Origin: Rhizoclosmatium globosum
Taxonomy: Eukaryota > Chytridiomycota > Chytridiomycetes > Chytridiales > Chytriomycetaceae
Direction: 5' to 3'
Length of the DNA: 64,000 bases
Assembly: GCA_002104985.1 (NCBI GenBank)
Contig: MCGO01000154.1
Coordinates: forward strand, 1 to 64,000
A program made the translations under genes and the position numbers. Shown one piece after another: positions 2,879 through 24,881 of this stretch (position 1 is its first letter; each line of letters begins with the position of its first letter). The notes under the pieces are model-generated. The model did no database searches. It saw only the letters and a list, made by a program, of their open reading frames with translations, and was not told the DNA's origin.

Positions 2879-3329
2879 ATGGCACAAGCAATCCACCAAG
2901 TTCTGGTCCAGTACAATCACTGGGCGAATGAGAAGCTCTTTGGCCATCTGTCTAGTGATTTAGTGAAGGAGAAAGTAACTGCACGCTACCAAGAGTTGAT
3001 TCGAGAGAGTTTGGTTGAATTGGATGGATTGACCGTGGCCTTCCTCTCTTTCCTTGGCATTTCAAGTGGAACCACAAACCTGACTGAAAGTACATCGATT
3101 GAATCAGTTTGTGCAGTTATCCTGAACTCCTCAGGCGCTCTACTCGCTCACTTGGCCCCAACTGACACTTCAAGTTGCCAACCAATCACCTCCGAATCGA
3201 TTCTCTCCTTCACCAACAAATCCACCCAAATCCGTGGAACAATCTCTGGTTTTCTGTGCATGTGCGGACTGAAGCCACTTGCCCTGGATGCACTGTACAT
3301 TAAACCATGCAAGGAAGTCACTGACCCAC
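2879..3329 (+). pseudogene. Tandem DinB-like protein, 5' half, interrupted by LTR retrotransposon
   Basis: The first 150 codons from ATG 2879 start with QYNHWANEKLF, a typical DinB N-terminal helix, and end with a stretch (RGTISGFLCMCGLKPLALD) aligning with the end of a DinB domain, where the usual text is HHRGQ. The metal-binding histidines of this first domain are lost. DinB-family proteins are four-helix metal-binding enzymes, many of them thiol-dependent transferases. The frame runs straight into the LTR at 3330. After removing the element and one CCAC copy, the frame continues at 14605 for about 30 codons, so the retrotransposon sits in the linker between two DinB-like domains. Confidence 0.7.
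3326..3329. repeat. Target-site duplication (left), CCAC
   Basis: Four bases CCAC precede the left LTR and recur right after the right LTR at 14601-14604. This is the expected 4-6 bp signature of LTR-element integration and fixes the element borders. Confidence 0.85.
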
Positions 3330-4421
3330 TGTCACGACTTGCGGGGTCTTTTCGCCGGTATCTTCCCGGCAGCGCTCCTCATCCCTCGCTTGTAGCCGCC
3401 AATTTCACCAGAACTGTAAAGAACAGTTCCGATGGCCCCGGACGTCGCCACTACAAGCCCATGAGGACTCGAGCACTATACCTGCATCAACATCTAAAAG
3501 AGAAAAACTAACAGTAATGATGGGATAGAAACATAAAACAACAATAAAGAAAGATAACAACGGCACCGCCTCGCACTCACCTTTACACTCACCTTGCAAT
3601 CTGTTGTTGGTTCTCCTAACCACAAAACTTGCCATCTCGATGACCACTAGAGCACCATCGAGACTTGCACTTGCACCACCTTGCTCTCGTTCCGGTCCGT
3701 TGTGATCCACCCGAATATCCTTTCCTGGGACCGCGGTACTTGCTACTCAGTTGGTTGATCTTTACACATTCCCAACTGGACAGCTTGAATCGCTTGCTCA
3801 TCGGCACCAAGGAGCTTGACCAGTCGCCTCTGTATATCCGTTTTAGGGACCCGCGCCTTGGTTTCTCCTAGCCCAGAGTCTGGAGAGAGTGGTGTAGTAC
3901 TGGCTTGCATACCACTGGTTGGGGGTGCTTGTTAGGATTTCACACACACCGGTGTTCTATCCCCTTGACCATGGAGCCGTGGTTGGGCCGGTTCCCAAGG
4001 GTACTATCCCTCCGTTCGGGAAAGAGCCCCATGGTGAAAAGAGGTTCCTGGCCTGGATTGACTTGCTTTCCCAGCGAACTTGCAACTGTTGTCTGGCAGC
4101 AACCGGGTTGGGTTCTAGGGACGGGTTGTCCTCAGCCGGCATCCAGACTTGAATCGATCATGTCCTAATGATCCACAGACAAGTGGCCTCTGGAATGCCT
4201 CAAAGAGACCTGTTGGCTCTACAGTCTACTGTTGTCTTTTTGAGGGAACTTTTTGTTTTATTTTTGCAAAACCAATTTGCTATCAAGTAACATGTCCTGA
4301 CACTCAAAGAAATTGAGTAGCCACTCAAATAAGAAAGGTTTGGCTTCCTGTACCCCTTCCGACAAACTTCGAAATTGCCGAAACGTAAATTATCCAAACT
4401 CCTTGTCAGGAACTCCTGACA
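3330..4421 (-). repeat. Left LTR (3' LTR in element sense), 1,092 bp
   Basis: Starts TGTCACGACTT and ends TCCTGACA on the plus strand, giving TG...CA ends. It has the same length as the right LTR and no difference that I noticed. In element sense the LTR begins with the near-palindrome TGTCAGGA-GT-TCCTGACA. No coding function; several short open frames occur in both copies but match nothing I know. Confidence 0.95.
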
Positions 4422-4981: not shown

Positions 4982-7858
4982 TCAGGACTTCTTCTGGAGC
5001 TGATTCAAGCTCTGGCTCAGGCTCTGGATCAGCATTTTTGTGTTCCAAAACTTGGGGTCATCCAAGGTCCTTGTTTCTGTAAAAACAGTATTGGCGCGTT
5101 CAGTCTCACGTTTCAGCCAATTCTGGTACTGTTTATAGGCTCTTGCCTTGGTTGTTTTCACAGACTCCCAATAGTCAGCAATCATCTGAGCAGGCATGTC
5201 AATCTCGTCCTGCCAAGAATCATGTTTTCTAGCAGCTGGCTTATTATCGCGTCCCATCCAACGTGTCTTATACCGGAATCCTCTGGTTGCACTGCCATCT
5301 GCATCTTCAATTGAGTGTATCAGGAGAAGTGGGCGTGTAATGTCTTCCTCAGTGAACTCTAAATCCCACTTCCTTAACAAAAGGGGGTGCATTCCAAGTG
5401 CCTTCTTGGGCTCCCGGTTGGGTCGTTTTGAGTAAAGCACAGCATCACTCCATGCCTTATACTCTGTAGCATAGTCATCTCCTGCTAGCACTGCTGCATT
5501 CTCTGCACTGTCCACTGGCAATCTATTAACATATGGTCTGAGTCTACTTTCATGACACTCTCTGACCATCAAGTCCATGTTGTCAAAGTTTTCAACAACT
5601 TTATATCTTGAGGCTGCGGTTCCTGTAGATCTCTCCACTACTCGCACGGGTCCAATCCAACGGAAGAGGAACTTGGTTCCAACATTCATCTGTTGTGCAA
5701 CATTCTTGAGTGGGACAGCTAACCAAGCCCGATCTCCTTTCTTGAACTCATGTGGGGCATTGTCAGTAGTCAGCGTTTTGGTAATTGCTTTCTTTTGCTC
5801 CTGGGCAACATGATCTCTGATGAACTGTTGCGCAATTGATTGTCCTTCTCTAATCTGGTCTTTAATGGCTTCGTTCATGGCTTCAACTTCTTTTCTAGTA
5901 AGTTCTTTATTGAGCTGAATATTGAATGTCTTTAGGTTCAAGGAGCGGAGTAGGTTATTCCTCAACAGGTTTGTTCGCAGGTGATCTGTTGTCCTTGGTT
6001 TGAGTATCTTTCTTGGTATGATCACTCCACCTGGGGGTTTGGTAGGGTCCACAACTATTTGAGTTACAGTAACTCCTTTGTCACGTGTGACTCTTCTTAG
6101 TGTTCCATCCCGCCCCAGGAAGATAGCTGGTAACTCAAAGGAGTCATCTATATCTTCAAGGCTATCACTACCAAATTGGTACATTCCTCTCCTTGCAAAG
6201 ACTGTAACTATCCGTTGGGGTTTCCTGAAGTTGTTGAGTTTGAGTTCTCCAGAACTCCAGTCCAGTAAGTATGTTTTTCCAACCCTATCTATACGCTCTC
6301 CATTTTTCAGGTAAAAGCAAGAGGGAAATGGCTCTTTTGGTATATTCTTTGATATGAGTAAGGGGTCAAACTGTAAGTAAAGGATGTCCAAATCATCCTT
6401 CTCAAACAGGCGCTTGAGAGTCTCATGTTTGGGCACATCTGTTTCAACACCATACAGCAGCTTTCCCAAAGTCTTGCACATGAATGGTGCTAGTCTTCTG
6501 AATTTTGCAATTCCAATTCTGGCCTCATGCTTGGTGTTTGGTTCAACTGTTTCATAGCTGGCATTGCTCTCTAACAGGTCCAATTTATGTTGGCTCTCAA
6601 TTGCAGATTGTGCTTGGAGGGGGCTGACTCCAACTAACAAATCAGCTGGTACTCTGGCTTCACGTCCAAACATTACAAAGAAAGGTGTGTCCTTTATTGA
6701 GGCATGGACCTGTGTGCGGTAAGCAAAAAGAACGTAAGGGAGGTATGCACTCCAATCATCATAGTCTGTTTTATCTACATAAGCGCGCAGCTTCTGGGAC
6801 AGAGTTTTGATAAGTCTTTCGACTGGTCCATTGGCCTCTGGGCGGTAGGGGGCTGTGAATGTCTTCTCAAAGCCAAATGCTCTACTCAGGTATTCCATGA
6901 GTTTACCATTAAATGGGGGACCATTGTCCGTGTGGATAAAGATAGGGATCCCATAGCGGCAAAATACTTGTTCTATCAGGATGCGAGCAACTGTCTCAGC
7001 CTTAGTGTCTGGGATTGGTAGTGCCTCTGCCCATTTTGAGAAGCTATCAACTAGGACAAGGATATACACATTTCCATCTGCGTCTGGTTTCAGGGGACCT
7101 ACAAAATCTAACAAAATTGTTTCCCAAGGGTAATGTCCAATGGGTATTGGGTGGGTGTAACCTTGTTTTCGTATATTGTCTTTTGATTTCTGACATGTCT
7201 CACAAGAATCAATATGATTCTTTAAATCTGCAGCCATTTGTGGCCACCAAAATCTTTCTAACAGTCTGGGCATTACTTTTCCAAATCCAGCATGGCCAGA
7301 GTATAGGTCGTCATGTGCACAGTGGAGGACTTCGCGGCGCATTCCATCGGGAACACAGAGGACAACTCTGGCTGGTAGACGTCGGGCGGAAGATGATGAA
7401 GCATTAAATACCTTGTACAATAAATCATTACTTATGATCATTGACTTACTTTCCGCTGTCAGGGTTTTTGCTGTAGCTCCTTCAGGAATAACTCCTGCCT
7501 GCCTGAATATCTTCAAAGGTCCAAGGTAGGCATCCTTTTCTTGTAATTCACAGATCCTTTTGGAGGAGAATCCCATTAACTGGATGTATTCCGCTGAACT
7601 TTGATAGGTGTATTTCTCACTGTCATCATTGTCCCAGTTTGGTTTATCAAATTCAAGTCCGTGGGGGTAATAGGGTTCATCTGCTACTTCAAGGAGGTAG
7701 TTGAAATTGATATTTATTTGGATTTTAAGGTGATCACTGAGGGGCTCCTGTTCTGGGGCTTCAACCCTCGTGTCATATGCTTTGACTGGTATTCTTTTAT
7801 CAACCCATATGTAATCAATACGCCAAAAAGGGTAGTGCTGGGTGCCTTGATGAGCCAT
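4982..7858 (-). CDS. Retrotransposon Pol, C-terminal frame: end of EEP domain, integrase, chromodomain-like tail
   Basis: 958 codons from the ATG at 7858. Residues 11-50 carry the last two EEP motifs (WRIDYIWV and SDH), so this frame completes the endonuclease begun in the upstream frame. Integrase follows: zinc finger H182-x6-H189 with C219-x2-C222, then D251 (LLDFVGP), D311 (HTDNGPPF) and E347 (GPVERL), a standard D, D-35-E core. Residues about 440-690 match nothing I recognise. A basic segment (FKKGDRAWL) like the integrase C-terminal domain follows. Near 885-930 is a chromodomain-like stretch (YKTRWMGRD, then ADYWES). The frame overlaps the upstream frame by 145 bp. It is probably not translated from its own ATG but reached by a -1 shift, or separated only by a sequencing deletion. 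Confidence 0.92.
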   Translation of the reverse strand: MAHQGTQHYPFWRIDYIWVDKRIPVKAYDTRVEAPEQEPLSDHLKIQININFNYLLEVADEPYYPHGLEFDKPNWDNDDSEKYTYQSSAEYIQLMGFSSKRICELQEKDAYLGPLKIFRQAGVIPEGATAKTLTAESKSMIISNDLLYKVFNASSSSARRLPARVVLCVPDGMRREVLHCAHDDLYSGHAGFGKVMPRLLERFWWPQMAADLKNHIDSCETCQKSKDNIRKQGYTHPIPIGHYPWETILLDFVGPLKPDADGNVYILVLVDSFSKWAEALPIPDTKAETVARILIEQVFCRYGIPIFIHTDNGPPFNGKLMEYLSRAFGFEKTFTAPYRPEANGPVERLIKTLSQKLRAYVDKTDYDDWSAYLPYVLFAYRTQVHASIKDTPFFVMFGREARVPADLLVGVSPLQAQSAIESQHKLDLLESNASYETVEPNTKHEARIGIAKFRRLAPFMCKTLGKLLYGVETDVPKHETLKRLFEKDDLDILYLQFDPLLISKNIPKEPFPSCFYLKNGERIDRVGKTYLLDWSSGELKLNNFRKPQRIVTVFARRGMYQFGSDSLEDIDDSFELPAIFLGRDGTLRRVTRDKGVTVTQIVVDPTKPPGGVIIPRKILKPRTTDHLRTNLLRNNLLRSLNLKTFNIQLNKELTRKEVEAMNEAIKDQIREGQSIAQQFIRDHVAQEQKKAITKTLTTDNAPHEFKKGDRAWLAVPLKNVAQQMNVGTKFLFRWIGPVRVVERSTGTAASRYKVVENFDNMDLMVRECHESRLRPYVNRLPVDSAENAAVLAGDDYATEYKAWSDAVLYSKRPNREPKKALGMHPLLLRKWDLEFTEEDITRPLLLIHSIEDADGSATRGFRYKTRWMGRDNKPAARKHDSWQDEIDMPAQMIADYWESVKTTKARAYKQYQNWLKRETERANTVFTETRTLDDPKFWNTKMLIQSLSQSLNQLQKKS

Positions 7859-10800
7859 GTTGCTCCAGTTTGGCTGTATTTTTCACGGAAACTATCTGTG
7901 AACAATGTTTCAAGGGAGTTGAGCCACGTCTTCTCGTCTGGAGTTGTGGTTGATGGGAACTGGTCAACAATGTCTGTCTCAAGACCTTGGAGGACATCAG
8001 TGTAGTTTCGGATAGTATTGAAGTCACCAACCAGGATGACATCACGTGTAATGCGAAGTTGTTCGCAATGGGTTTTAAGGTCATCTTGGAACTCAAGTTT
8101 GTAGTTGTGTCTATCAGCAGTCCTGTTACCACTTGGTAAGTATGTGTTAACAACTGTAAGGTTTGGTAAGTGGAGGTTGGTGATCCTTCCTTCACTTGAA
8201 TGTTTTGGGTTTCCAGGCATGTGGTTGTCAGATTCTGATTCAAGTCCTTCAAACTTGCGCCAGAGTGTTAGGACTCCGTAATGTCCTGTTCTGGGATCAT
8301 TTAATTGGTGATTCCATTCTTTGAGCTTGTTCAGGTTTTCAATGAGTTGTACTGATTTCCTGTCTGTTCCCAGTCTTGTTTCTTGGAGGCAGATTACACT
8401 GCTTTTGAAGGACTGCAGGAAATGCTCAAGTAATTGTGGCTGGTCTTCTTGTTTTCTGGACAGGTTATTCTGTCCCGCGTACTTGTTGAGAAGGCCCCGG
8501 AGGCCATTGATATTCCAACTTGTAATGTTTAAAGTGGGGTAGGAATCTTTTATTGTTTCCTGCTCTTTATTTGTTTGGAAATGCTTTGGCTTATTTCTTG
8601 ATAAGTCTTTCACAGATTGGATTCTGTCCACCTTTTTCTTTGAGTTCCATTTGAGGATGTGTTTTCCTACTTTCTTTATCAATCCTTCAATGATAGCTCC
8701 ATTGCGTTTCTGTCTATCTTCGAATGCAAGAGTGAACGTTTGTAGATTCAAGTAGATTGATTCAACTTCTTGGTCATTTTGACCATTCTCCCCGTTATTT
8801 TGATGGAAATACGTCCCAATGTGGACTTTTTCTGTCTCGCGTTTGTCAATGTTGTCCTGGCAGAAGTTGATTCTTGAAAGTGAATCAGCTACAACCTGAG
8901 CTGTTCCAGCTACGTGGACAAGTGTGATATCATGGTCTTGTAATGCGTAACACCATCGTGCAAATCTTCCAGTCAGTTCACCATTTTTGAAAAGTGGTAG
9001 AAGGGCAATATGGTCTGTCTCTATTCGGACAGGTTTATTTATAAGATAACCAGCGAAAGTGTCAACACTCCATACAACGGCAAGGCCTTCTCTGTCCGTA
9101 TTACTATATCTCTGCTCTACACTGGTCAGTGTTCGAGAAATAAATGCAACAGGTTTTCTGTCGCGGACATTCTTTGGGTCATACGTGTACAATGCAGCTC
9201 CAATTGAGGTTCCTGATGCGTCGCATTCAATAAGGAGATGTGAGTCTTTATCTGGTTCAACAAGGAGTTGGTCGTTGCGTAATTGGTTTCTTAGGATTTG
9301 AAACGCTTTCTCGCGTTCCTCTGACCAAATGAAAGGGTGGTCTGTTCTAAGTAATTCATAAAGTGGTTTAGCAGTTTCAGAGAAATTACGGAGGAAACGT
9401 CTGAAGTATGAGGTGAAACCAATGAATCTCTGTAGGTCTTTGACGTTTTTGGGGCGTGGCCAGTTCTCAAGAGCTGCCATTTTCTTGGGATCTTTTCTGA
9501 GTCCTTCTTTGGAGATGACATGGCCTAGGAAAGGTAAAGACGTGAATAGTAAGTTGCATTTCTTGGGTTTGACTTTTAGATTGAATTCGTGGAAACGTCC
9601 AAAGACCATATCTAAGTATTCAAAGTGGGAGTCTAAATCCTCGCTGTAGATTACAACGTCGTCTATATAAACAAGGCAATGTACCCACTTGAGTCCAGCA
9701 AGGACAAGATCTATCATTCGTTGGAATGTACTTGGTGAATTTACCAAACCAAATGGCATACAATTCCATTCGTAAAGTCCGGCAGAGCTTACAAAAGCTG
9801 TCTTGTGTCTGTCTTCTTCTGCGATGGGTACTTGCCAGAATCCACTCAGTAAGTCCACTGAACTGAAATATGCGTGTCCAGCCAGTTTCTCAAAAATGAG
9901 GGCAATATTTGGGATAGGATACTTGTCAATGATTGAAATCGCGTTTAATTTTCTGTAATCAACACAGAAGCGCCAACTACCGTCTGACTTTTTGGCCAGA
10001 ACGACAGGTGCTGCATACTGTGATCGAGAGCGTTGAATAACATTGTTTTCCAGCATATCTTTAATGTGTGATCTAATAATTTCTGCTCTTGCCATTCCTT
10101 CTGGGTACGGGTTTGTGTGGGGTGGTTTTGCACCGTCTTTCAAGGGGATAGTGTGTGAGGGAACAAATTGTGTACCTGTTACAACTCCTGGTCTGAAGAT
10201 ATCTGCCCATTTTTCTATGATCGAGCGTAGTTTCCTGAGTGCCTCAGCGCCGTGTAATTGTACAATATGTTCCTTGGGTATTTGGTTCCAAATGTCTTCA
10301 ATAGTGACATTCTTTTCTGGAGGGAAATAGTCCATTTTATCTTCTTTTGATGTGTCCCTCTCCCAACCATAGTTGGGTATGTCGTCCGGTTCAGTATTCA
10401 TGGTATATTTCTTATAGAACTCGTTTGAGAAGGTTGCATTCTTAAAAGCGGTGCCTCGCTCGCGTTTTACGCGTGGTTTCCTATATTTCTTTCCTTTGCG
10501 ACGTGGCGTCCAAGGGTGCATTTTGGGTAGGTCCTCAAGAGGGTCATAATATAGGTAAAAGATATCATCATCTTCTTCGGATTGCTTAAATATGTCGTTT
10601 ATTGTTGCATCTCTTATTGAAATGCTTTCGTTGTCGTTGAAGTACAATTCATAGGACTCGTCTACGTCTCCGTCGACAAATTCGAAGAATTCTTCATCAC
10701 TTTCTAAATTACTTTCTCCATAATTTTGGTTGATAGCTGCGCCCATTATGATATCATTCTGCAATGGTGATTGTTGCGGGTTCGGGAGAGGTTGTTGTGT

Positions 10801-11703
10801 CAGGTTTGGTGAACCTAGCTTCTCATAGAATGATTCAAGATCCGACGGGTTGTGTGCATTCACTAACAATGCAAAGTCTTGTGCAAGCTTGTCATCTTCG
10901 GAAATCTCCATTGGTACTTCTAATATTGGTAAGTCTCCGGCTTCTGTGTCCGTTAGGAACGCTACTGTTGTTCCTACCCTTAGCGTAAGAGGTTTTGATC
11001 CTAAATACGTTATTTGTAATGGCACAGGCCCTTTTGCGATATCTTTGAAGTCGAATACTGTTGATGCTACATGTACTGACTTGTCGCCGAGGCCGGAGGA
11101 CCCGTTGATTGTACACGTTGTGATTTCTGTGTCCGGAATTTTTGATGCTTGGACTTTTACAGTGTGTGTGTGGTTTTGTTGGAGGATAGTTGTATTGCAA
11201 AGGGTTAGTGGTATATTCTCCGTTCTTTTATTGAGGTTTGAAAGCTTCTCCGTTTGGGATTCAGGGTAATCAACGTAAGAATATAGCGGTGTTTTTAGTG
11301 TTATGTGTGGTTTACTTGGTGACTTCCAGTAAAACATATCGTCTTCGAAGGAAATTGTTGCTTTCAAAGCTTTCATTTCTGGTGTCCCAATGATTATGTC
11401 TTCTGGCATATCCTGCACTACAGTGAAACGCGTCATAAAGCCCAGAGTATGTGGCGTGTATTGTCCCGGCAGTAGTCTCATGTAACAGAATCCGATAATT
11501 CTTTGTTTTCCCGTTACTCCTCTGTTAAATGCTGGTCGATCGAGCTTGATTATCTTAGGTGGGTTAACTAATTGGTCTAAAAATGTCATAGTTACAACCG
11601 AGTGATTGCTTCCAGTGTCCTGCATAAGTCGGTTGATGAAAACTCCGTGAACCCATCCAGATATCCTTGCAACAGTGTACATGCGTTCGCTTGGCTTCGG
11701 CAT
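7714..11703 (-). CDS. Retrotransposon Pol, N-terminal frame: protease, RT, RNase H, EEP endonuclease
   Basis: 1,329 codons from ATG 11703; the frame stays open about 120 bp further upstream. Aspartic protease DTG at residues 29-31. RT has CVDYRKLNA, MPFGLVNSPSTFQ and the catalytic YIDD near residue 676. RNase H has ECDASG near 826 and ends in ADSLSR. From about residue 1057 an exonuclease III/APE-like domain begins: SWNINGLRG, LQETRLG (catalytic Glu), GHYGVLTLW, VVNTYLPSG and LVGDFN near 1228. The remaining motifs are in the next frame, about one base away near 7855. No canonical slippery heptamer is seen there, and one G added after TGG would join the frames. Such a domain is usual in non-LTR elements but not in LTR elements. 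Confidence 0.93.
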   Translation of the reverse strand: MPKPSERMYTVARISGWVHGVFINRLMQDTGSNHSVVTMTFLDQLVNPPKIIKLDRPAFNRGVTGKQRIIGFCYMRLLPGQYTPHTLGFMTRFTVVQDMPEDIIIGTPEMKALKATISFEDDMFYWKSPSKPHITLKTPLYSYVDYPESQTEKLSNLNKRTENIPLTLCNTTILQQNHTHTVKVQASKIPDTEITTCTINGSSGLGDKSVHVASTVFDFKDIAKGPVPLQITYLGSKPLTLRVGTTVAFLTDTEAGDLPILEVPMEISEDDKLAQDFALLVNAHNPSDLESFYEKLGSPNLTQQPLPNPQQSPLQNDIIMGAAINQNYGESNLESDEEFFEFVDGDVDESYELYFNDNESISIRDATINDIFKQSEEDDDIFYLYYDPLEDLPKMHPWTPRRKGKKYRKPRVKRERGTAFKNATFSNEFYKKYTMNTEPDDIPNYGWERDTSKEDKMDYFPPEKNVTIEDIWNQIPKEHIVQLHGAEALRKLRSIIEKWADIFRPGVVTGTQFVPSHTIPLKDGAKPPHTNPYPEGMARAEIIRSHIKDMLENNVIQRSRSQYAAPVVLAKKSDGSWRFCVDYRKLNAISIIDKYPIPNIALIFEKLAGHAYFSSVDLLSGFWQVPIAEEDRHKTAFVSSAGLYEWNCMPFGLVNSPSTFQRMIDLVLAGLKWVHCLVYIDDVVIYSEDLDSHFEYLDMVFGRFHEFNLKVKPKKCNLLFTSLPFLGHVISKEGLRKDPKKMAALENWPRPKNVKDLQRFIGFTSYFRRFLRNFSETAKPLYELLRTDHPFIWSEEREKAFQILRNQLRNDQLLVEPDKDSHLLIECDASGTSIGAALYTYDPKNVRDRKPVAFISRTLTSVEQRYSNTDREGLAVVWSVDTFAGYLINKPVRIETDHIALLPLFKNGELTGRFARWCYALQDHDITLVHVAGTAQVVADSLSRINFCQDNIDKRETEKVHIGTYFHQNNGENGQNDQEVESIYLNLQTFTLAFEDRQKRNGAIIEGLIKKVGKHILKWNSKKKVDRIQSVKDLSRNKPKHFQTNKEQETIKDSYPTLNITSWNINGLRGLLNKYAGQNNLSRKQEDQPQLLEHFLQSFKSSVICLQETRLGTDRKSVQLIENLNKLKEWNHQLNDPRTGHYGVLTLWRKFEGLESESDNHMPGNPKHSSEGRITNLHLPNLTVVNTYLPSGNRTADRHNYKLEFQDDLKTHCEQLRITRDVILVGDFNTIRNYTDVLQGLETDIVDQFPSTTTPDEKTWLNSLETLFTDSFREKYSQTGATWLIKAPSTTLFGVLITYGLIKEYQSKHMTRGLKPQNRSPSVITLKSK

Positions 11704-12099
11704 GCGTGTGTCTGACGTGAGCCTGCTGCTTACGCTCCTTTCGACGTCTGAGGTCGGTAGTTGTACGGCACGATTCTTGGTGGATTTTTTGCACGTCTGC
11801 GTTGTATTCCAATTTTGTTACACGATTCAGAGTAACGAAATGAAAGTAATGTGAGAAATAATGTTTATTATCATCCGTGGGAATGGGAGGGAGTGATAGA
11901 AGTCTCTACATCAATAATACATCATACAGTTACCTAGTTACGGTTCGTATTCAACAAAGCGACCAGCTTTTCCTGATTCGATTGGGGTTTGGATTGTTCC
12001 GGTATTGTTTCGTCGTCGAATGAGTTTACGTGAACGCTCGTCGATATCTAAATTGAATGAGTGAACTATACAAAGGGAGTTGGGTAGAGGCGTGGTACG

Positions 12100-12327
12100 C
12101 TCGTCCACCGACGAGTCAATAGCACGAAGAGAGCTCTCCACCGAGAGATCTTCCGCACCCAAATAGAGTATATGCACCTTCTCCCCCACCGGAGAGTAAG
12201 ATACGTGAAGAGAGCTCTCCACCGAGAGATCTTCTATACTCAGGAGAGGGGAGGGAATGGTACGTTGCCACAGCTCATCCACCGATGAGTCAATAGCGCG
12301 AAGAGAGCTCTCTACCGAGAGATCTTC
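12100..12327 (-). repeat. Array of six short hairpins with GGTG-type loops in the leader
   Basis: On the plus strand six stem-loops share the loop core YACC, which reads GGTG or GGTA in element sense: 12100-12115 (CTCGTC/GACGAG), 12126-12153 (GAAGA...TCTTC outer and CTCTC/GAGAG inner stem), 12179-12196 (TCTCC/GGAGA, larger loop), 12207-12234 (as the second), 12274-12289 (CTCATC/GATGAG) and 12300-12327 (as the second, loop TACC). The first and fifth differ by a paired change (G-C to A-T) that keeps the stem. This suggests a folded RNA, possibly a packaging or dimerisation signal. Confidence 0.7.
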
Positions 12328-13490
12328 CGCACCCGAGAGAGAGGGGGTGGGGTGATAGTCACCTTCATTATAATGTCCAGTTCGTCGACAGTGAGTGGTA
12401 GTCCAGTAGGGGGTAGCCGTGGGGATATGTACAGAGTTGGATAAAGTCTGAGTGCGAATAGACAGTTAGATCAGTGTCGTAGGCGAGGGTGAACTGACCT
12501 GAATCATTCGACGTTGGCTTCGTTGGTGTTCCACGCTGTTCCTCCGGGCATCGTTATTCGGAGTTGGTCGTCGTTCTGGTTTCGTCGTTGAACTGGTCTG
12601 GTGGTTCAGTAGGTCAGATATGATGAAAGGTGAGGGGCTCTCCGTTCATACGTGGCTCACCGGTTTGAAGTCTTCGTTTCTGCTCAGCCCGCAACGGCGA
12701 GGGCGTTGCGGCAACGTAACAGGGACGTTGGTGGTGGGGTGAGGCACGTAGTTCGTAAGGTGAGTTCCTGTATGGTTCGAGAGCGAGTTAGAGAACTAGA
12801 GACAGCTTCAAGAACAACTTACAAGCGGCTTTGAGCTTCGTAGTATCGCCGTAGTTCCGAGTGTTGTCGTGGTTTCGAGCGTCGTCGCTCGAACTGTCGT
12901 CGGTTGGTCGTTGGTTTTGAGTGAAGAAAAACGAATAGAGTTTTAGAAGAGGGATTGGGGAGGAAGATACCTTCTTTCGATTCTGAGTTTCGTCGTTTGT
13001 TGAGCCCTTGTTCTCGTCGCTCCAATTGTCTACTGGAGTTTAAGCCGGTGTTTGGGATATAAGTGCCGCAGGCCATACAGCAGAAACCAGACAACGGCAC
13101 CAGTTTGCGACGGAGAGCGAGAGGATTTCGAGCAACTTTCGACAGTTGGGTACTTTTGACAAGAGGTTTTCAAAGGTGTTCGGGATCCGTCCCGCCCAAC
13201 AAACAAACAACGGAGGTTTCGAAAGACGAGGGAGTAACGTTTCCTTCCCTCAGGTGGGTTCGAGTGAATCCTAATATAGTTATATTGAGTTTGGTGCTCT
13301 CCCGAGCTTTATTATACAGTGATCATACGATTAACAATAATGAAATGAAGGCTATGGGTGGCCAAAGCTCTGGGTTGAGCTATCACTGGATAAACCAGCG
13401 ATCTTCGCAACAAGTTGCGAGAAAGTGAATGAGTGTTCACATATACTTTACCATGTCTAGTAGAGGTCACAGCGGCCATCATCCCCTAAT

Positions 13491-13508
13491 GAGGTGAGGC
13501 CCCCAAAA
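13491..13508 (-). other. Candidate primer-binding site
   Basis: In element sense the bases after the 5' LTR read TTTTGGGGGCCTCACCTC. The TGG three bases in is compatible with annealing to a tRNA 3' CCA, but I could not match the following bases to a specific tRNA. Confidence 0.3.
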
Positions 13509-14600
13509 TGTCACGACTTGCGGGGTCTTTTCGCCGGTATCTTCCCGGCAGCGCTCCTCATCCCTCGCTTGTAGCCGCCAATTTCACCAGAACTGTAAAG
13601 AACAGTTCCGATGGCCCCGGACGTCGCCACTACAAGCCCATGAGGACTCGAGCACTATACCTGCATCAACATCTAAAAGAGAAAAACTAACAGTAATGAT
13701 GGGATAGAAACATAAAACAACAATAAAGAAAGATAACAACGGCACCGCCTCGCACTCACCTTTACACTCACCTTGCAATCTGTTGTTGGTTCTCCTAACC
13801 ACAAAACTTGCCATCTCGATGACCACTAGAGCACCATCGAGACTTGCACTTGCACCACCTTGCTCTCGTTCCGGTCCGTTGTGATCCACCCGAATATCCT
13901 TTCCTGGGACCGCGGTACTTGCTACTCAGTTGGTTGATCTTTACACATTCCCAACTGGACAGCTTGAATCGCTTGCTCATCGGCACCAAGGAGCTTGACC
14001 AGTCGCCTCTGTATATCCGTTTTAGGGACCCGCGCCTTGGTTTCTCCTAGCCCAGAGTCTGGAGAGAGTGGTGTAGTACTGGCTTGCATACCACTGGTTG
14101 GGGGTGCTTGTTAGGATTTCACACACACCGGTGTTCTATCCCCTTGACCATGGAGCCGTGGTTGGGCCGGTTCCCAAGGGTACTATCCCTCCGTTCGGGA
14201 AAGAGCCCCATGGTGAAAAGAGGTTCCTGGCCTGGATTGACTTGCTTTCCCAGCGAACTTGCAACTGTTGTCTGGCAGCAACCGGGTTGGGTTCTAGGGA
14301 CGGGTTGTCCTCAGCCGGCATCCAGACTTGAATCGATCATGTCCTAATGATCCACAGACAAGTGGCCTCTGGAATGCCTCAAAGAGACCTGTTGGCTCTA
14401 CAGTCTACTGTTGTCTTTTTGAGGGAACTTTTTGTTTTATTTTTGCAAAACCAATTTGCTATCAAGTAACATGTCCTGACACTCAAAGAAATTGAGTAGC
14501 CACTCAAATAAGAAAGGTTTGGCTTCCTGTACCCCTTCCGACAAACTTCGAAATTGCCGAAACGTAAATTATCCAAACTCCTTGTCAGGAACTCCTGACA
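13509..14600 (-). repeat. Right LTR (5' LTR in element sense), 1,092 bp
   Basis: Same length, same ends and same internal text as 3330-4421 as far as I compared. It would carry the promoter of the element transcript. Confidence 0.95.
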
Positions 14601-14604
14601 CCAC
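14601..14604. repeat. Target-site duplication (right), CCAC
   Basis: Second copy of the CCAC found at 3326-3329. It marks the right border of the retrotransposon. Confidence 0.85.
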
Positions 14605-15063
14605 AGCAACTCGAACTCTTTCGCTTGCACGCAAAACAGAACATGGAAGCATACACTGACTTGATAAAGAGTATTGAAGGACTCACGGACGAAGCGTATC
14701 ACTCAAACTGTGGATTGTGCTTTCGATCTGAATCATATGGTCATGGGTGATACAGTCTGGTACGATGTTCTGCGTGGAAAAGATGCGTCTCCATTCGATG
14801 TGTACTGGGAACGACCTGACGAAGAGTTGTATTCCAATGCAGAATCAACTTCAAGTCTGTGGGAGACTTGGTGTCCTGACCGGGATGAACTCAAAGAAAG
14901 AATCAGAAAGCAAAGTGTGTTGTGGTCTGAATATGTGAATGGATTAGAAGGATTTGATCATCCAACTGAAAAGCGGCTTGGACTGGTCTTGTTTCATGTT
15001 GTGAATCATGGATGGCATCATCGTGGACAGATTTATGCTGCGTTACGTGTTATTGGGAAATAA
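14605..15063 (+). pseudogene. Tandem DinB-like protein, 3' half, separated from its start by the retrotransposon
   Basis: Continues the frame of 2879-3329 (QQLELFRLHAKQNMEAYTDL) into a second DinB-like domain. This domain keeps the metal-site histidines that the first one lacks: HMVMGD and, near the end, NHGWHHRGQI. It stops at 15063. Near 14715-14722 the frame changes: the first part runs on to a stop, while the conserved part (from NHMVMG) lies one frame away. About four residues expected before LNH (often IHGT) are also missing. This suggests a small deletion in the broken gene or an assembly error. Without the element and with this repaired, the protein would be about 300 residues. Confidence 0.65.
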
Positions 15064-19504: not shown

Positions 19505-19615
19505 ACTAGTTTTTTTCTTCTTCTTCTTCATAAAAAGGGTTGGTGTGGGAAGGGGGGTAAGGAAAATTGACGATAAATCGTGCTGAGCTACTGGTTCTTG
19601 AACGATTTGTGCATA

Positions 19616-21719
19616 CACCCCTAGACCATATTTGCAACGGAATTCCCACAGAGCACGTGTTCTGTTGGAACACTGTCGGAAATTATCACATAGTTCCCAC
19701 GGAACATCTGTTAGGTGGGAATTGCCGTGGGAATTTGTGACATTGTTTTCTACAGAACGTTCCGTGGGATATTCTGTGAGAAGTTCCGACAGAGTATCAA
19801 CAGATTAGGGTTAAATCCATCCCACTTAAAATAATTCGAGACGGGAGTTTGAACCCAGAGCTTCTTGCACAGTGCCCCAAGTGTTACCAAAGGAAGCATT
19901 CCTCACCACACAGGACATGTTTAAATTTGGATCCACAAAACTAAGGAAAGAAACATTAGAACTCCAGCCACGCGCTCTGTTCAATATTACAATTTATACT
20001 GATATTCGATTATGTATATATATTAAAACTCATCCAAACCGAAGACACCATTTACAACTGGTGACCTTGTGTGATCGATTGTATGCGAGCTGTCCCTGCT
20101 GGCGATCTAACTTCCGACTTCGCGACCTTCCTCCGCAACTGTTCATTGCCAAATAAGTATAGAATAGTACAATAAAAGCGCAGGATAATGATAGACCTCC
20201 TTTGAAATAACTTCGAAATCAAGACAACAACAAGCTCAAGTTCTTTCCCTCGTCTCTCACACCCACACGCACACACACGCACACGCACACACACTCTCTC
20301 TCATCGATTTGCGTCTTGATTAAGCATATCTCTCCCAATCCATACCAACAGAGTCAAGGATTGATGAGTAATGCTGGCACATTCAATTGCAAGTCGACAA
20401 CAGAAACCTATTTCCTGTGTCCAATAATGCGCTAACCCCTCAAACAAGCTGCTATTGACACACTATAGGACTCCCCTTTGGGTTTCAAGTGTTACGGGGG
20501 TGACTTAAGTCCACACTGTAAACTCAACTCACCTCGTTTTCCCTCCAGAATTCACGTCCGCTCCTTGTGTATTGTCTCGAAAGCCGCTTGTTCCAAACAA
20601 TGGTCGCTCTGCGACGGGTGAGTACTTCAGTCCATACCACGCTGTTGGTCGGATTCAATGCTAAAACTAAGTTAGGACCAGTTACAACTGAAAAGTATGA
20701 AATGTCTCGAAGCGACGCTGCAATTACGTTCTACGCTGCAATTACGTTCTAGTACAAGTCAGGTACTTCCTCCCTTTCACTTTCTCGTTGCTCAACATCT
20801 TAGTCCACTCTTTCGCAGTTGACAAGTAAAGTCGCGCTCGATTATTGGATCGTTTATTAAGTAAGCTAGTAAAAGTTGTGCAGTTATGTGTCTTATCGAG
20901 CTTTTAGATATAACATCGAAGTTCAATCTTTACCGTTCCGTTCACTTTCTTTGAGGTTGCGAAGTAGGAGAAGGGCCTTTGTCAGTGTACATCGAGCAGA
21001 AGTTGACGCCTGCATGGACATTCTCGCTGACAGCCGAACAGATTCCTTTGAAGGCCGTTGCCCTGAAACTGGAGACTTGGTGCCAGTTTAACTCGTTTGA
21101 ACAACACTTTTAATCACTTGGCGTCGCCAAATTTGGACATCGTCGGATTCGTACAACAACACACTCGACGAACCAGGTGCTGCCCATGTTCGCATGCGCT
21201 GAACCGGTCAAATGCTTCACATGGAGAAGTTGTCGAATTGGACGAGGTTGGAGACTAAAAGATGAGCGTAAGAGGAGGGGAGGGGTGTACCTTTGTCTTC
21301 CGTGTATGGATGACTGTCGATTTCAAGTTCTTGGTTGATGCCTCTGGTTTGTTTTCCGCCAGTTGACTTTGGTGTGGTAAGTTAACTCTGAAACTGCTCT
21401 CATCTTTGATTTCATTCGGTTCTTGAAATAAATAATATAACCAATACAAATCATTTCCATCTCTTTGTCATGTGGCTGCATCCCAAAATAAGAGACGAGG
21501 AACTGAAACAAACCCTGCTCTGTAGGGATTCTGCGGAAGAGTCTGGCAGAAATCCAACAGAGTTTCCTGCGGAATTCCGACAGAGCAGCTCTGTTGAAAT
21601 TCTGGCAGATAACCTTCTGTGGGAACTCTGTGGTGTAACCCGTCGGAATTCCAGCCGGATTTTTCGACAGAATTCCGACAGAGTTCCAACAGAATTCCTG
21701 CAGAACAGGGTTAGCGGTG
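19616..21719 (+). mobile_element. 2,104-bp TA-flanked element, copy 1 (non-autonomous?)
   Basis: Bounded by CACCCCTAGACC and GGGTTAGCGGTG, imperfect inverted ends, with TA on both sides (19614-19615 and 21720-21721). The terminal 200 bp at each end are packed with variants of TTCCRACAGA and its complement, such as GGAATTCCGACAGAG. The interior has a CA microsatellite (about 20260-20295) and only short frames; no transposase motif is seen. TA duplication suggests a Tc1/mariner-type mechanism, but transposase type is unknown. Copy 2 lies inverted at 22387-24490. Confidence 0.8.
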
Positions 21720-22000
21720 TAGTAAGTGCATTGTCGGTCCGACTGGGTCTGATGCACTGTCTTCAAGAACCTCTTGGGATCGGCCTCGGATACCACAAAG
21801 AGTTTTTGCTCTATGCGTTGTACGAATCCTTGACTCAGTTCAAGTTGGCTCGTCAAGTTTTGATGTAAGTTTCAACAATCAGGGGGTTTATTTCCTCGCA
21901 GACAAGTATTTACACGAGTATTGTACAGTAAATAATAGAATCTTATGATGACAACTTCAATTCCAAAAATAGCATTCTGAGGTTGCAAAGAAACTAAAAG

Positions 22001-22259: not shown

Positions 22260-22386
22260 ATGCTGTCAAACAGTCAATCCCCTCCAGCGTCATTACGGTC
22301 TCCTGGAACCTCAATCCAACTGACCGATTTGATACTCAACATCGAGCCAAGCCAAATGAGTCATAACACCGACAATGCACTTACTA
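22260..22386 (+). pseudogene. 5' part of small hypothetical gene split by element copy 2
   Basis: ATG 22260 opens a frame close to exon 1 of the gene at 18814 (SPGTSIQLTDLILNIEP shared), with a short extra stretch before DNALT. It is cut at TA 22385-22386 by the 2,104-bp element. Joining it to 24493 after removing the element and one TA keeps the frame and leads to the stop at 24881, giving a protein of about 170 residues. Confidence 0.6.
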
Positions 22387-24490
22387 CACCGCTAACCCTG
22401 TTCTGCAGGAATTCTGTTGGAACTCTGTCGGAATTCTGTCGAAAAATCCGGCTGGAATTCCGACGGGTTACACCACAGAGTTCCCACAGAAGGTTATCTG
22501 CCAGAATTTCAACAGAGCTGCTCTGTCGGAATTCCGCAGGAAACTCTGTTGGATTTCTGCCAGACTCTTCCGCAGAATCCCTACAGAGCAGGGTTTGTTT
22601 CAGTTCCTCGTCTCTTATTTTGGGATGCAGCCACATGACAAAGAGATGGAAATGATTTGTATTGGTTATATTATTTATTTCAAGAACCGAATGAAATCAA
22701 AGATGAGAGCAGTTTCAGAGTTAACTTACCACACCAAAGTCAACTGGCGGAAAACAAACCAGAGGCATCAACCAAGAACTTGAAATCGACAGTCATCCAT
22801 ACACGGAAGACAAAGGTACACCCCTCCCCTCCTCTTACGCTCATCTTTTAGTCTCCAACCTCGTCCAATTCGACAACTTCTCCATGTGAAGCATTTGACC
22901 GGTTTCAGCGCATGCGAACATGGGCAGCACCTGGTTCGTCGAGTGTGTTGTTGTACGAATCCGACGATGTCCAAATTTGGCGACGCCAAGTGATTAAAAG
23001 TGTTGTTCAAACGAGTTAAACTGGCACCAAGTCTCCAGTTTCAGGGCAACGGCCTTCAAAGGAATCTGTTCGGCTGTCAGCGAGAATGTCCATGCAGGCG
23101 TCAACTTCTGCTCGATGTACACTGACAAAGGCCCTTCTCCTACTTCGCAACCTCAAAGAAAGTGAACGGAACGGTAAAGATTGAACTTCGATGTTATATC
23201 TAAAAGCTCGATAAGACACATAACTGCACAACTTTTACTAGCTTACTTAATAAACGATCCAATAATCGAGCGCGACTTTACTTGTCAACTGCGAAAGAGT
23301 GGACTAAGATGTTGAGCAACGAGAAAGTGAAAGGGAGGAAGTACCTGACTTGTACTAGAACGTAATTGCAGCGTAGAACGTAATTGCAGCGTCGCTTCGA
23401 GACATTTCATACTTTTCAGTTGTAACTGGTCCTAACTTAGTTTTAGCATTGAATCCGACCAACAGCGTGGTATGGACTGAAGTACTCACCCGTCGCAGAG
23501 CGACCATTGTTTGGAACAAGCGGCTTTCGAGACAATACACAAGGAGCGGACGTGAATTCTGGAGGGAAAACGAGGTGAGTTGAGTTTACAGTGTGGACTT
23601 AAGTCACCCCCGTAACACTTGAAACCCAAAGGGGAGTCCTATAGTGTGTCAATAGCAGCTTGTTTGAGGGGTTAGCGCATTATTGGACACAGGAAATAGG
23701 TTTCTGTTGTCGACTTGCAATTGAATGTGCCAGCATTACTCATCAATCCTTGACTCTGTTGGTATGGATTGGGAGAGATATGCTTAATCAAGACGCAAAT
23801 CGATGAGAGAGAGTGTGTGTGCGTGTGCGTGTGTGTGCGTGTGGGTGTGAGAGACGAGGGAAAGAACTTGAGCTTGTTGTTGTCTTGATTCGAAGTTATT
23901 TCAAAGGAGGTCTATCATTATCCTGCGCTTTTATTGTACTATTCTATACTTATTTGGCAATGAACAGTTGCGGAGGAAGGTCGCGAAGTCGGAAGTTAGA
24001 TCGCCAGCAGGGACAGCTCGCATACAATCGATCACACAAGGTCACCAGTTGTAAATGGTGTCTTCGGTTTGGATGAGTTTTAATATATATACATAATCGA
24101 ATATCAGTATAAATTGTAATATTGAACAGAGCGCGTGGCTGGAGTTCTAATGTTTCTTTCCTTAGTTTTGTGGATCCAAATTTAAACATGTCCTGTGTGG
24201 TGAGGAATGCTTCCTTTGGTAACACTTGGGGCACTGTGCAAGAAGCTCTGGGTTCAAACTCCCGTCTCGAATTATTTTAAGTGGGATGGATTTAACCCTA
24301 ATCTGTTGATACTCTGTCGGAACTTCTCACAGAATATCCCACGGAACGTTCTGTAGAAAACAATGTCACAAATTCCCACGGCAATTCCCACCTAACAGAT
24401 GTTCCGTGGGAACTATGTGATAATTTCCGACAGTGTTCCAACAGAACACGTGCTCTGTGGGAATTCCGTTGCAAATATGGTCTAGGGGTG
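22387..24490 (-). mobile_element. 2,104-bp TA-flanked element, copy 2 (inverted)
   Basis: Reverse complement of 19616-21719, equal in length. I saw only single-base differences in homopolymers, for example one A more or less near 20217/23890 and near 21200/22907. Flanked by TA at 22385-22386 and 24491-24492. No transposase visible. Together the copies can form a 2.1-kb hairpin with a 667-bp loop. Confidence 0.82.
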
Positions 24491-24881
24491 TATAAACTCA
24501 ACGCAACGTCAGCATCCAAGCAATCTCATAAACGCCACGGTTCCGCCACAAAGTTCTTTAACAAGACCGTCAGCTATTAGAACGCATACTCTTTCTTCAG
24601 ATTCAACACATTTGCATTGTCTGCCGTATTCATACCCACAAATCGGAGTTTCGCCAACTGTTCAAACATTGGATGACCTCGCGGCGCAGAAACATAAAAA
24701 CTACGTTTCTTTGACAGAGACGCAGGTTGACGGAATGAGTGTTGAGGACTTGGTCTTGTTTATGCAAGAAAGAGATGGGAGGTGTCGGAAAAGTATCGAG
24801 GAGGTGCAAGAAGAGTGGATGCGTGTGTGGAGGGGTGCATATGGAGCGAAAGTTGAGAGTCGGAGAAGGAGTGGCGTGTGA
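24491..24881 (+). pseudogene. 3' part of small hypothetical gene split by element copy 2
   Basis: Open frame from the TA border to the stop at 24881 (INSTQRQHPSNLINATVPPQ at its start, MSVEDLVLFMQERDGR further on). The last third is charged and probably helical. It has no start of its own near the border. It joins in frame to 22260-22386 if the element is removed cleanly. No known domain. Confidence 0.55.

Follow-up and report, generated by a model that had tools for sequence, protein, structure and literature searches.

A nuclease domain within the Pol of a chytrid retrotransposon

We analysed a window of 64,000 nucleotides (nt) from Rhizoclosmatium globosum (contig MCGO01000154.1, positions 1 to 64,000) and found that it carries, on the minus strand, a defective copy of a Ty3/gypsy, chromovirus-like long terminal repeat (LTR) retrotransposon whose Pol holds an endonuclease/exonuclease/phosphatase (EEP) nuclease domain (PF03372) between RNase H and integrase. 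An earlier note on this DNA had claimed this arrangement, and the domain lies where the note put it. Pol occupies two open reading frames (ORFs), both on the minus strand. The first (7714..11817) encodes a protease-like DTG motif, the reverse transcriptase (RT; RVT_1, residues 609-768), RNase H (831-961) and the first part of the EEP (Exo_endo_phos, PF03372, 1100-1290, E = 2.6e-9). The second (4982..7882) encodes the end of the EEP, the integrase (Integrase_H2C2, residues 177-235; rve, 257-348) and a C-terminal part. Within the first ORF the EEP spans 7945..8520 (minus strand), where the Pfam match and motifs compared with alignment columns place the Asn, Glu, Tyr, Asp and Asn catalytic positions; its last part, at 7730..7837 (minus strand) in the second ORF, supplies the final three through WRIDY and SDH. 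All of the motifs quoted in the note are present, with WRIDYIWV and SDH in the other frame.

The element is bounded by a 5' LTR (13509..14600) and a 3' LTR (3330..4421), both on the minus strand, which are identical over 1,092 bp and have TG..CA ends; further copies of this LTR occur elsewhere in the genome. The LTRs are flanked by a 4-bp target-site duplication, CCAC (3326..3329 and 14601..14604, unstranded). Such ends together with a short duplication are characteristic of Ty3/gypsy elements and were established for the window copy only. Immediately internal to the 3' LTR is a run of purines, and immediately internal to the 5' LTR a candidate primer site starting with TGG; the D, D, E and HHCC columns of the integrase are invariant in 15 of 15 aligned rows, the window included. 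The true LTRs and DDE integrase on which the note had relied are borne out. In support of the family assignment, the RT-RNase H region of the in-genome relative L012, which shares one RT clade with the window element, matches Ty3 Gag-Pol (7q5b) at E = 2.3e-108. A divergent chromodomain-like region lies at approximately 5160..5345 (minus strand); the tail containing it aligns with the chromodomain-bearing tails of two polyproteins from other sources, P0121 (2e-42) and P0122 (2e-26). PF00385 itself gave no Pfam match in the window or in the five in-genome ORFs run through Pfam. The window lineage resembles the Ty3/gypsy chromoviruses in its LTRs, Ty3-type RT and RNase H, and H2C2 and DDE integrase, with a PF00385 chromodomain present in P0121, P0122 and a third outside polyprotein, P0024, but differs from them in carrying an EEP in Pol.

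Our analysis also brought out features beyond the earlier note, namely the defects of the window copy and the presence of an EEP also in another RT clade and in another place within Pol. In the window the region between the 5' LTR and Pol (11818..13508, minus strand) has no tblastn match to the gag-side residues 1-936 of the relative L010. The gag region is absent from the window copy, which accordingly has no gag zinc knuckle, and from L009, and it is present in the related copy L028. A zf-CCHC match was found in the relatives L010, L012, L014 and L018 and not in L023. Three 62-bp direct repeats, the second and third 74% and 94% identical to the first, stand at 12099-12334 between the 5' LTR and the gag-less Pol. 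The window EEP is split over two frames because 7 nt are missing relative to its paralogue L009, which is 99% identical there. The end of the domain in the next frame, as noted earlier, is therefore true of the window copy but not a feature common to the family. We considered a programmed frameshift inside the EEP and rejected it, as the frame changes at different places from copy to copy and five copies have an uninterrupted frame. The window copy is thus a deleted derivative of its lineage, one that looks young yet is defective, since its LTRs are identical while its EEP is split and its gag is missing. An ORF with a DinB family match (PF05163, 2.1e-9) at 14668-15063 directly adjoins the 5' LTR, and the element may have inserted in or beside a DinB gene.

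EEP-bearing relatives in the genome and in other sources

A search of the whole genome (56.9 Mb, 420 contigs) with the EEP gave 49 matches, which fall into 39 places including the window. Downstream of every one of these places, on the same strand, lies an integrase match; it is no more than 806 nt away in 34 and 1,966-3,016 nt away in the other five. The integrase comparison covered the 39 places, with pieces of one copy merged, plus nine PF03372 matches; the remaining PF03372 matches are LINE (long interspersed nuclear element), host or unexamined. Absence from related elements, which the earlier note had named as grounds for abandoning its claim, is not what we observe: an EEP lies downstream in 32 of the 36 RT matches with at least 49% identity to L012, and the four others comprise three fragments and one copy, C384:148815. 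Among 26 more distant RT matches the EEP is downstream in six, upstream in seven and missing from 13. These counts used 62 of 96 RT matches, the other 34 being shorter pieces, many from copies already counted. In five elements a single open frame covers RT, RNase H, EEP, H2C2 and rve; for four of these the stretch fetched also includes a gag zinc knuckle. Open frames containing the EEP reach 3,901 amino acids (aa).

A second RT clade in the same genome (L024, L025 and the elements of L131-L133; support 100/100) carries the EEP in either of two Pol positions. L024 (G000:C368), L025 (G000:C146), C301 and C383:75956 are of a second type in which the EEP stands ahead of RT, followed by RNase H and integrase; in L024 and L025 this EEP-first order lies within one frame. 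Elements with a LINE-type endonuclease-RT layout are also present in the genome (L029, L031 and others, L040). At G000:C384:126121-154529, an element of the window's LTR family is seemingly EEP-less and seems to hold a second, EEP-bearing element (C384:141210-144596) between its LTRs, as judged from match coordinates only.

Beyond this genome, we identified the EEP in five polyproteins from other sources. It follows RNase H in P0007, P0121 and P0122, of which P0007 ends where the integrase would start, and it stands ahead of the protease in P0024 and P0125. RT phylogeny had been proposed as a check, and our tree of 44 rows places P0007, P0024, P0121 and P0122 in one clade with eight in-genome rows of the window's group (100/100); three of these four outside members carry the EEP after RNase H. 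The EEP-less P0110 is a neighbour of this clade (90/98). The reference rows were 26 EEP-less proteins out of 29 hand-picked from 129 EEP-less ones, three having been dropped for overlong spans. In the RT tree the partner of P0007 is the in-genome L018 (98/94), which sets it among the lineages of the window's genome; the EEP tree puts it just outside the six in-genome rows, though support there is weak (80/45). A FastTree of the proteins listed was built from 134 of 142 rows, eight second-clade and long-branch ones having been set aside, and on it EEP presence requires only two changes, in the window's clade and in P0125. The protein list covered 120 of 1,953 proteins, and further EEP-less clade members are possible outside it. 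A protein search with the EEP region returned none of 602 candidates at E <= 0.001, though P0007 and P0024 fit its length range, and no relatives were found in viral contigs. A scan of genome contigs gave 273 relatives; of the best 80, the 19 examined were all lone ORFs of 257-343 aa.

These data show that the EEP is co-inherited with RT in a clade extending beyond the window's genome. The chance that the assembly is chimeric here, or that one element alone received an inserted EEP gene, is close to nil given the 39 in-genome places, all with a downstream integrase match, and the five outside polyproteins; we found nothing in favour of this explanation, which the earlier note had also raised, and rejected it. 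We are highly confident that the EEP domain, its position and its clade are real.

Two other Ty3-like polyproteins, P0131 (3233 aa) and P0124 (1686 aa), have a C-terminal cytosine DNA methyltransferase, and P0131 is labelled a bacterial methyltransferase in its source. Elsewhere in the window there is an inverted repeat of ~2.1 kb (19613-21738 and 22368-24493) with arms 99.9% identical and ~630 bp apart; open frames that overlap them are at most 182 aa long.

Conservation and kinship of the EEP

All 16 Ty3-type EEPs that were aligned, most of them picked as intact, retain the eight catalytic positions, at identities to L012 that go down to 22%. The window row is absent from this alignment and its motifs were compared with the columns. 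The catalytic residues thus align as the earlier note had expected. For the pair L018/L019 the EEP has a nonsynonymous rate (dN) of 0.006 against a synonymous rate (dS) of 0.151.

The EEP is very probably of the ExoIII/APE1 repair type rather than the LINE type, as its profile and predicted fold favour, the tree leaving the relation open. A profile of 11 in-genome relatives matches solved ExoIII at 6e-49 and is far nearer ExoIII/APE1 than L1 endonuclease, with LINE EEPs scoring far lower. An EEP fold is predicted for the L012 domain, and its nearest solved structures include exonuclease III homologues. No LINE endonuclease is among the best 50 structure matches listed, although kinship is not thereby excluded; in a viral structure library, where a few entries are unnamed, neither a retrovirus nor an LTR element is named among the best 50 of 771 matches. 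The domain shares with the ExoIII/APE1 apurinic/apyrimidinic (AP) endonucleases (Mth0212, ExoA, plant ARP, APE1) the fold, the eight catalytic positions and, in the window's group, the pocket Trp, but it sits in a retrotransposon polyprotein and is 24-30% identical to the solved chains listed. The pocket Trp is absent from all five LINE EEPs compared.

The EEP tree, which took in 13 of the 80 loci from the genome-contig scan, offers two splits, neither of them starred. One unites the cellular rows with 15 Ty3 rows against LINEs and P0125 (87/89); the other, which runs counter to a repair-type origin, sets all 16 cellular rows apart from all Ty3 and LINE rows (79/83). The kinship check proposed in the earlier note therefore comes out clearly on the ExoIII/APE1 side by profile and stays undecided by tree. 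An origin of the EEP from LINEs was considered and not adopted; the profile and the pocket Trp speak against it and the tree leaves it open. A single origin of all Ty3-type EEPs is neither established, with support of 75/66 without P0125, nor rejected by the approximately unbiased (AU) test (p = 0.124).

Possible function and significance

In the general view of LTR retrotransposons, RT, RNase H and integrase carry out the work on complementary DNA (cDNA), and repair is left to host enzymes. We hypothesize that this Ty3/gypsy lineage carries an ExoIII/APE1-type nuclease in Pol as a cDNA repair helper, a reading that we consider an even call when taken as a whole. The placement of the EEP beside RT/RNase H and integrase suggests, most simply, that it would act on the element's own cDNA. 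The nuclease, released by proteolysis or still fused to RT or integrase, would accompany the cDNA and, before integration, cut it at abasic or damaged sites or clean blocked or mismatched 3' ends. A long cDNA could thereby be fully copied and its ends made joinable by integrase. The catalytic and zinc residues of the integrase are conserved, so these elements should integrate in the ordinary way, with no need for the EEP to take over from integrase.

By analogy the EEP may be an on-board repair helper of the same functional class as retroviral dUTPase. Retroviral dUTPases guard cDNA against uracil; their fold differs from the EEP fold, and the lentiviral dUTPase occupies the exact RNase H-integrase slot. 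The available parts of PMC1224870 place retroviral dUTPases within pol or ahead of protease, and once after integrase. Both would be accessory DNA-protection enzymes on this comparison, and the first two places match both EEP positions, but dUTPases act on nucleotides and not on DNA and have a third known place, after integrase. In P0131, which has a chromodomain match, a 3'-5' exonuclease takes up the slot between RNase H and integrase. The cDNA-repair reading fits with this exonuclease and with the dUTPase positions as parallels.

A number of our results weigh against this proposal. The copy C384:148815 appears to have lost its EEP by deletion, its RT and integrase matches being only 356 nt apart with nearby LTR copies 99% alike to the window's, so these elements may manage without the EEP or receive it in trans. 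In the window copy the EEP is broken despite the identity of the LTRs. Most in-genome rows of the alignment had been located through QETR-like and SDH motifs and selected because their frames were open, a choice biased towards intact sites; L025, L048 and the five outside rows did not enter in this way. The EEP diverges more than RT in seven of seven pairs compared (for instance, 73% identity against 94% for L010/L009 and 62% against 63% for L012/L014), and dN/dS was measurable for one of the seven, synonymous sites being saturated in the other six. The abasic-pocket Trp, kept in 8 of the 16 aligned EEPs, those of the window's group among them, is absent from the other half. Finally, catalytic residues alone do not separate AP cleavage from 3' exonuclease, 3' phosphatase or plain nicking.

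The last point bears on the most serious rival, in which the EEP is mainly a 3'-5' exonuclease, a 3' phosphatase or an RNase H-like enzyme that proofreads RT errors or removes primers on an unusually long element. ExoIII and APE1 have these activities as well, and the exonuclease III homologues among the nearest structures, the length of the EEP-holding frames and the exonuclease of P0131 all suit such a role; the Trp retained in half of the EEPs argues the other way, and the present data do not tell the activities apart. We regard this as possible, if clearly less probable than cDNA repair. Nicking of chromosomal DNA, leading to target-primed or integrase-independent insertion, is unlikely. 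EEP nucleases nick target DNA in this way in LINEs, which have neither LTRs nor a DDE integrase. The window lineage shares with LINEs an EEP in an RT polyprotein, the EEP-first order recurs in L024, L025, P0024 and P0125, and the 79/83 split would allow Ty3 and LINE EEPs to form one transposon group. Against this stand the LTRs and the DDE integrase of the window element, its end-to-end LTR identity and 4-bp duplication (window copy only), the integrase residues kept in every row and a profile far from L1 endonuclease. The LINE-like, target-primed side route suggested by the earlier note accordingly finds little favour here. Rated slightly lower still is a wider role in the insertion machinery, with the EEP nicking target or cDNA to give a second, integrase-independent or integrase-assisting route; such elements would be true LTR/non-LTR hybrids that arose in two or more RT lineages and whose nuclease shifted from one Pol slot to the other. 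Least probable of these is a captured EEP kept for Pol folding or spacing without catalysis. Its faster divergence and the one apparently EEP-less copy would be consistent with such a passenger, but the conserved catalytic positions at identities down to 22%, even with row selection favouring intact sites, and the low dN of L018/L019 speak against it.

Captured enzymes are not in themselves new to retroelements. The portions available of earlier papers describe a DNA methyltransferase (PMC5890265), AlkB in an orchid Gypsy element (PMC9289625), an extra RNase H (PMC5348765) and, in bdelloid LTR elements, DEDDy exonuclease and GDSL ORFs (PMC5408684). In the accessible text of two others, the chromodomain and a DnaQ-like exonuclease are named as accessory domains of LTR elements (PMC6338049), and four 'complex transposons' with extra domains are reported from Pyrenophora, Rhizopus and Chaetomium (PMC3248453). 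As far as these sources go, the window lineage resembles such elements in an accessory enzyme acquired at lineage level and differs in the enzyme itself, and DEDDy, GDSL and AlkB are separate ORFs. The word endonuclease is absent from the main text of a fungal chromovirus survey (PMC2864245). No report of an EEP in an LTR element was found among the titles and abstract openings listed in a literature search, several of whose lists were capped and outside which lie most subscription papers and Repbase, and the note's view of the system as undescribed holds to that extent. Provisionally, then, a Ty3/gypsy element with a captured enzyme is of a known kind, and the enzyme and its slot are new as far as this search reaches.

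The finding also carries a warning for annotation, in that an EEP together with RT does not mean a LINE; the part of a fungal survey available to us traces PF03372 of transposon origin to the LINE order (PMC10799480). With a repair-type nuclease fixed in its Pol, such a clade opens to experiment the question of whether retrotransposition is limited by abasic sites, blocked ends or RT errors.
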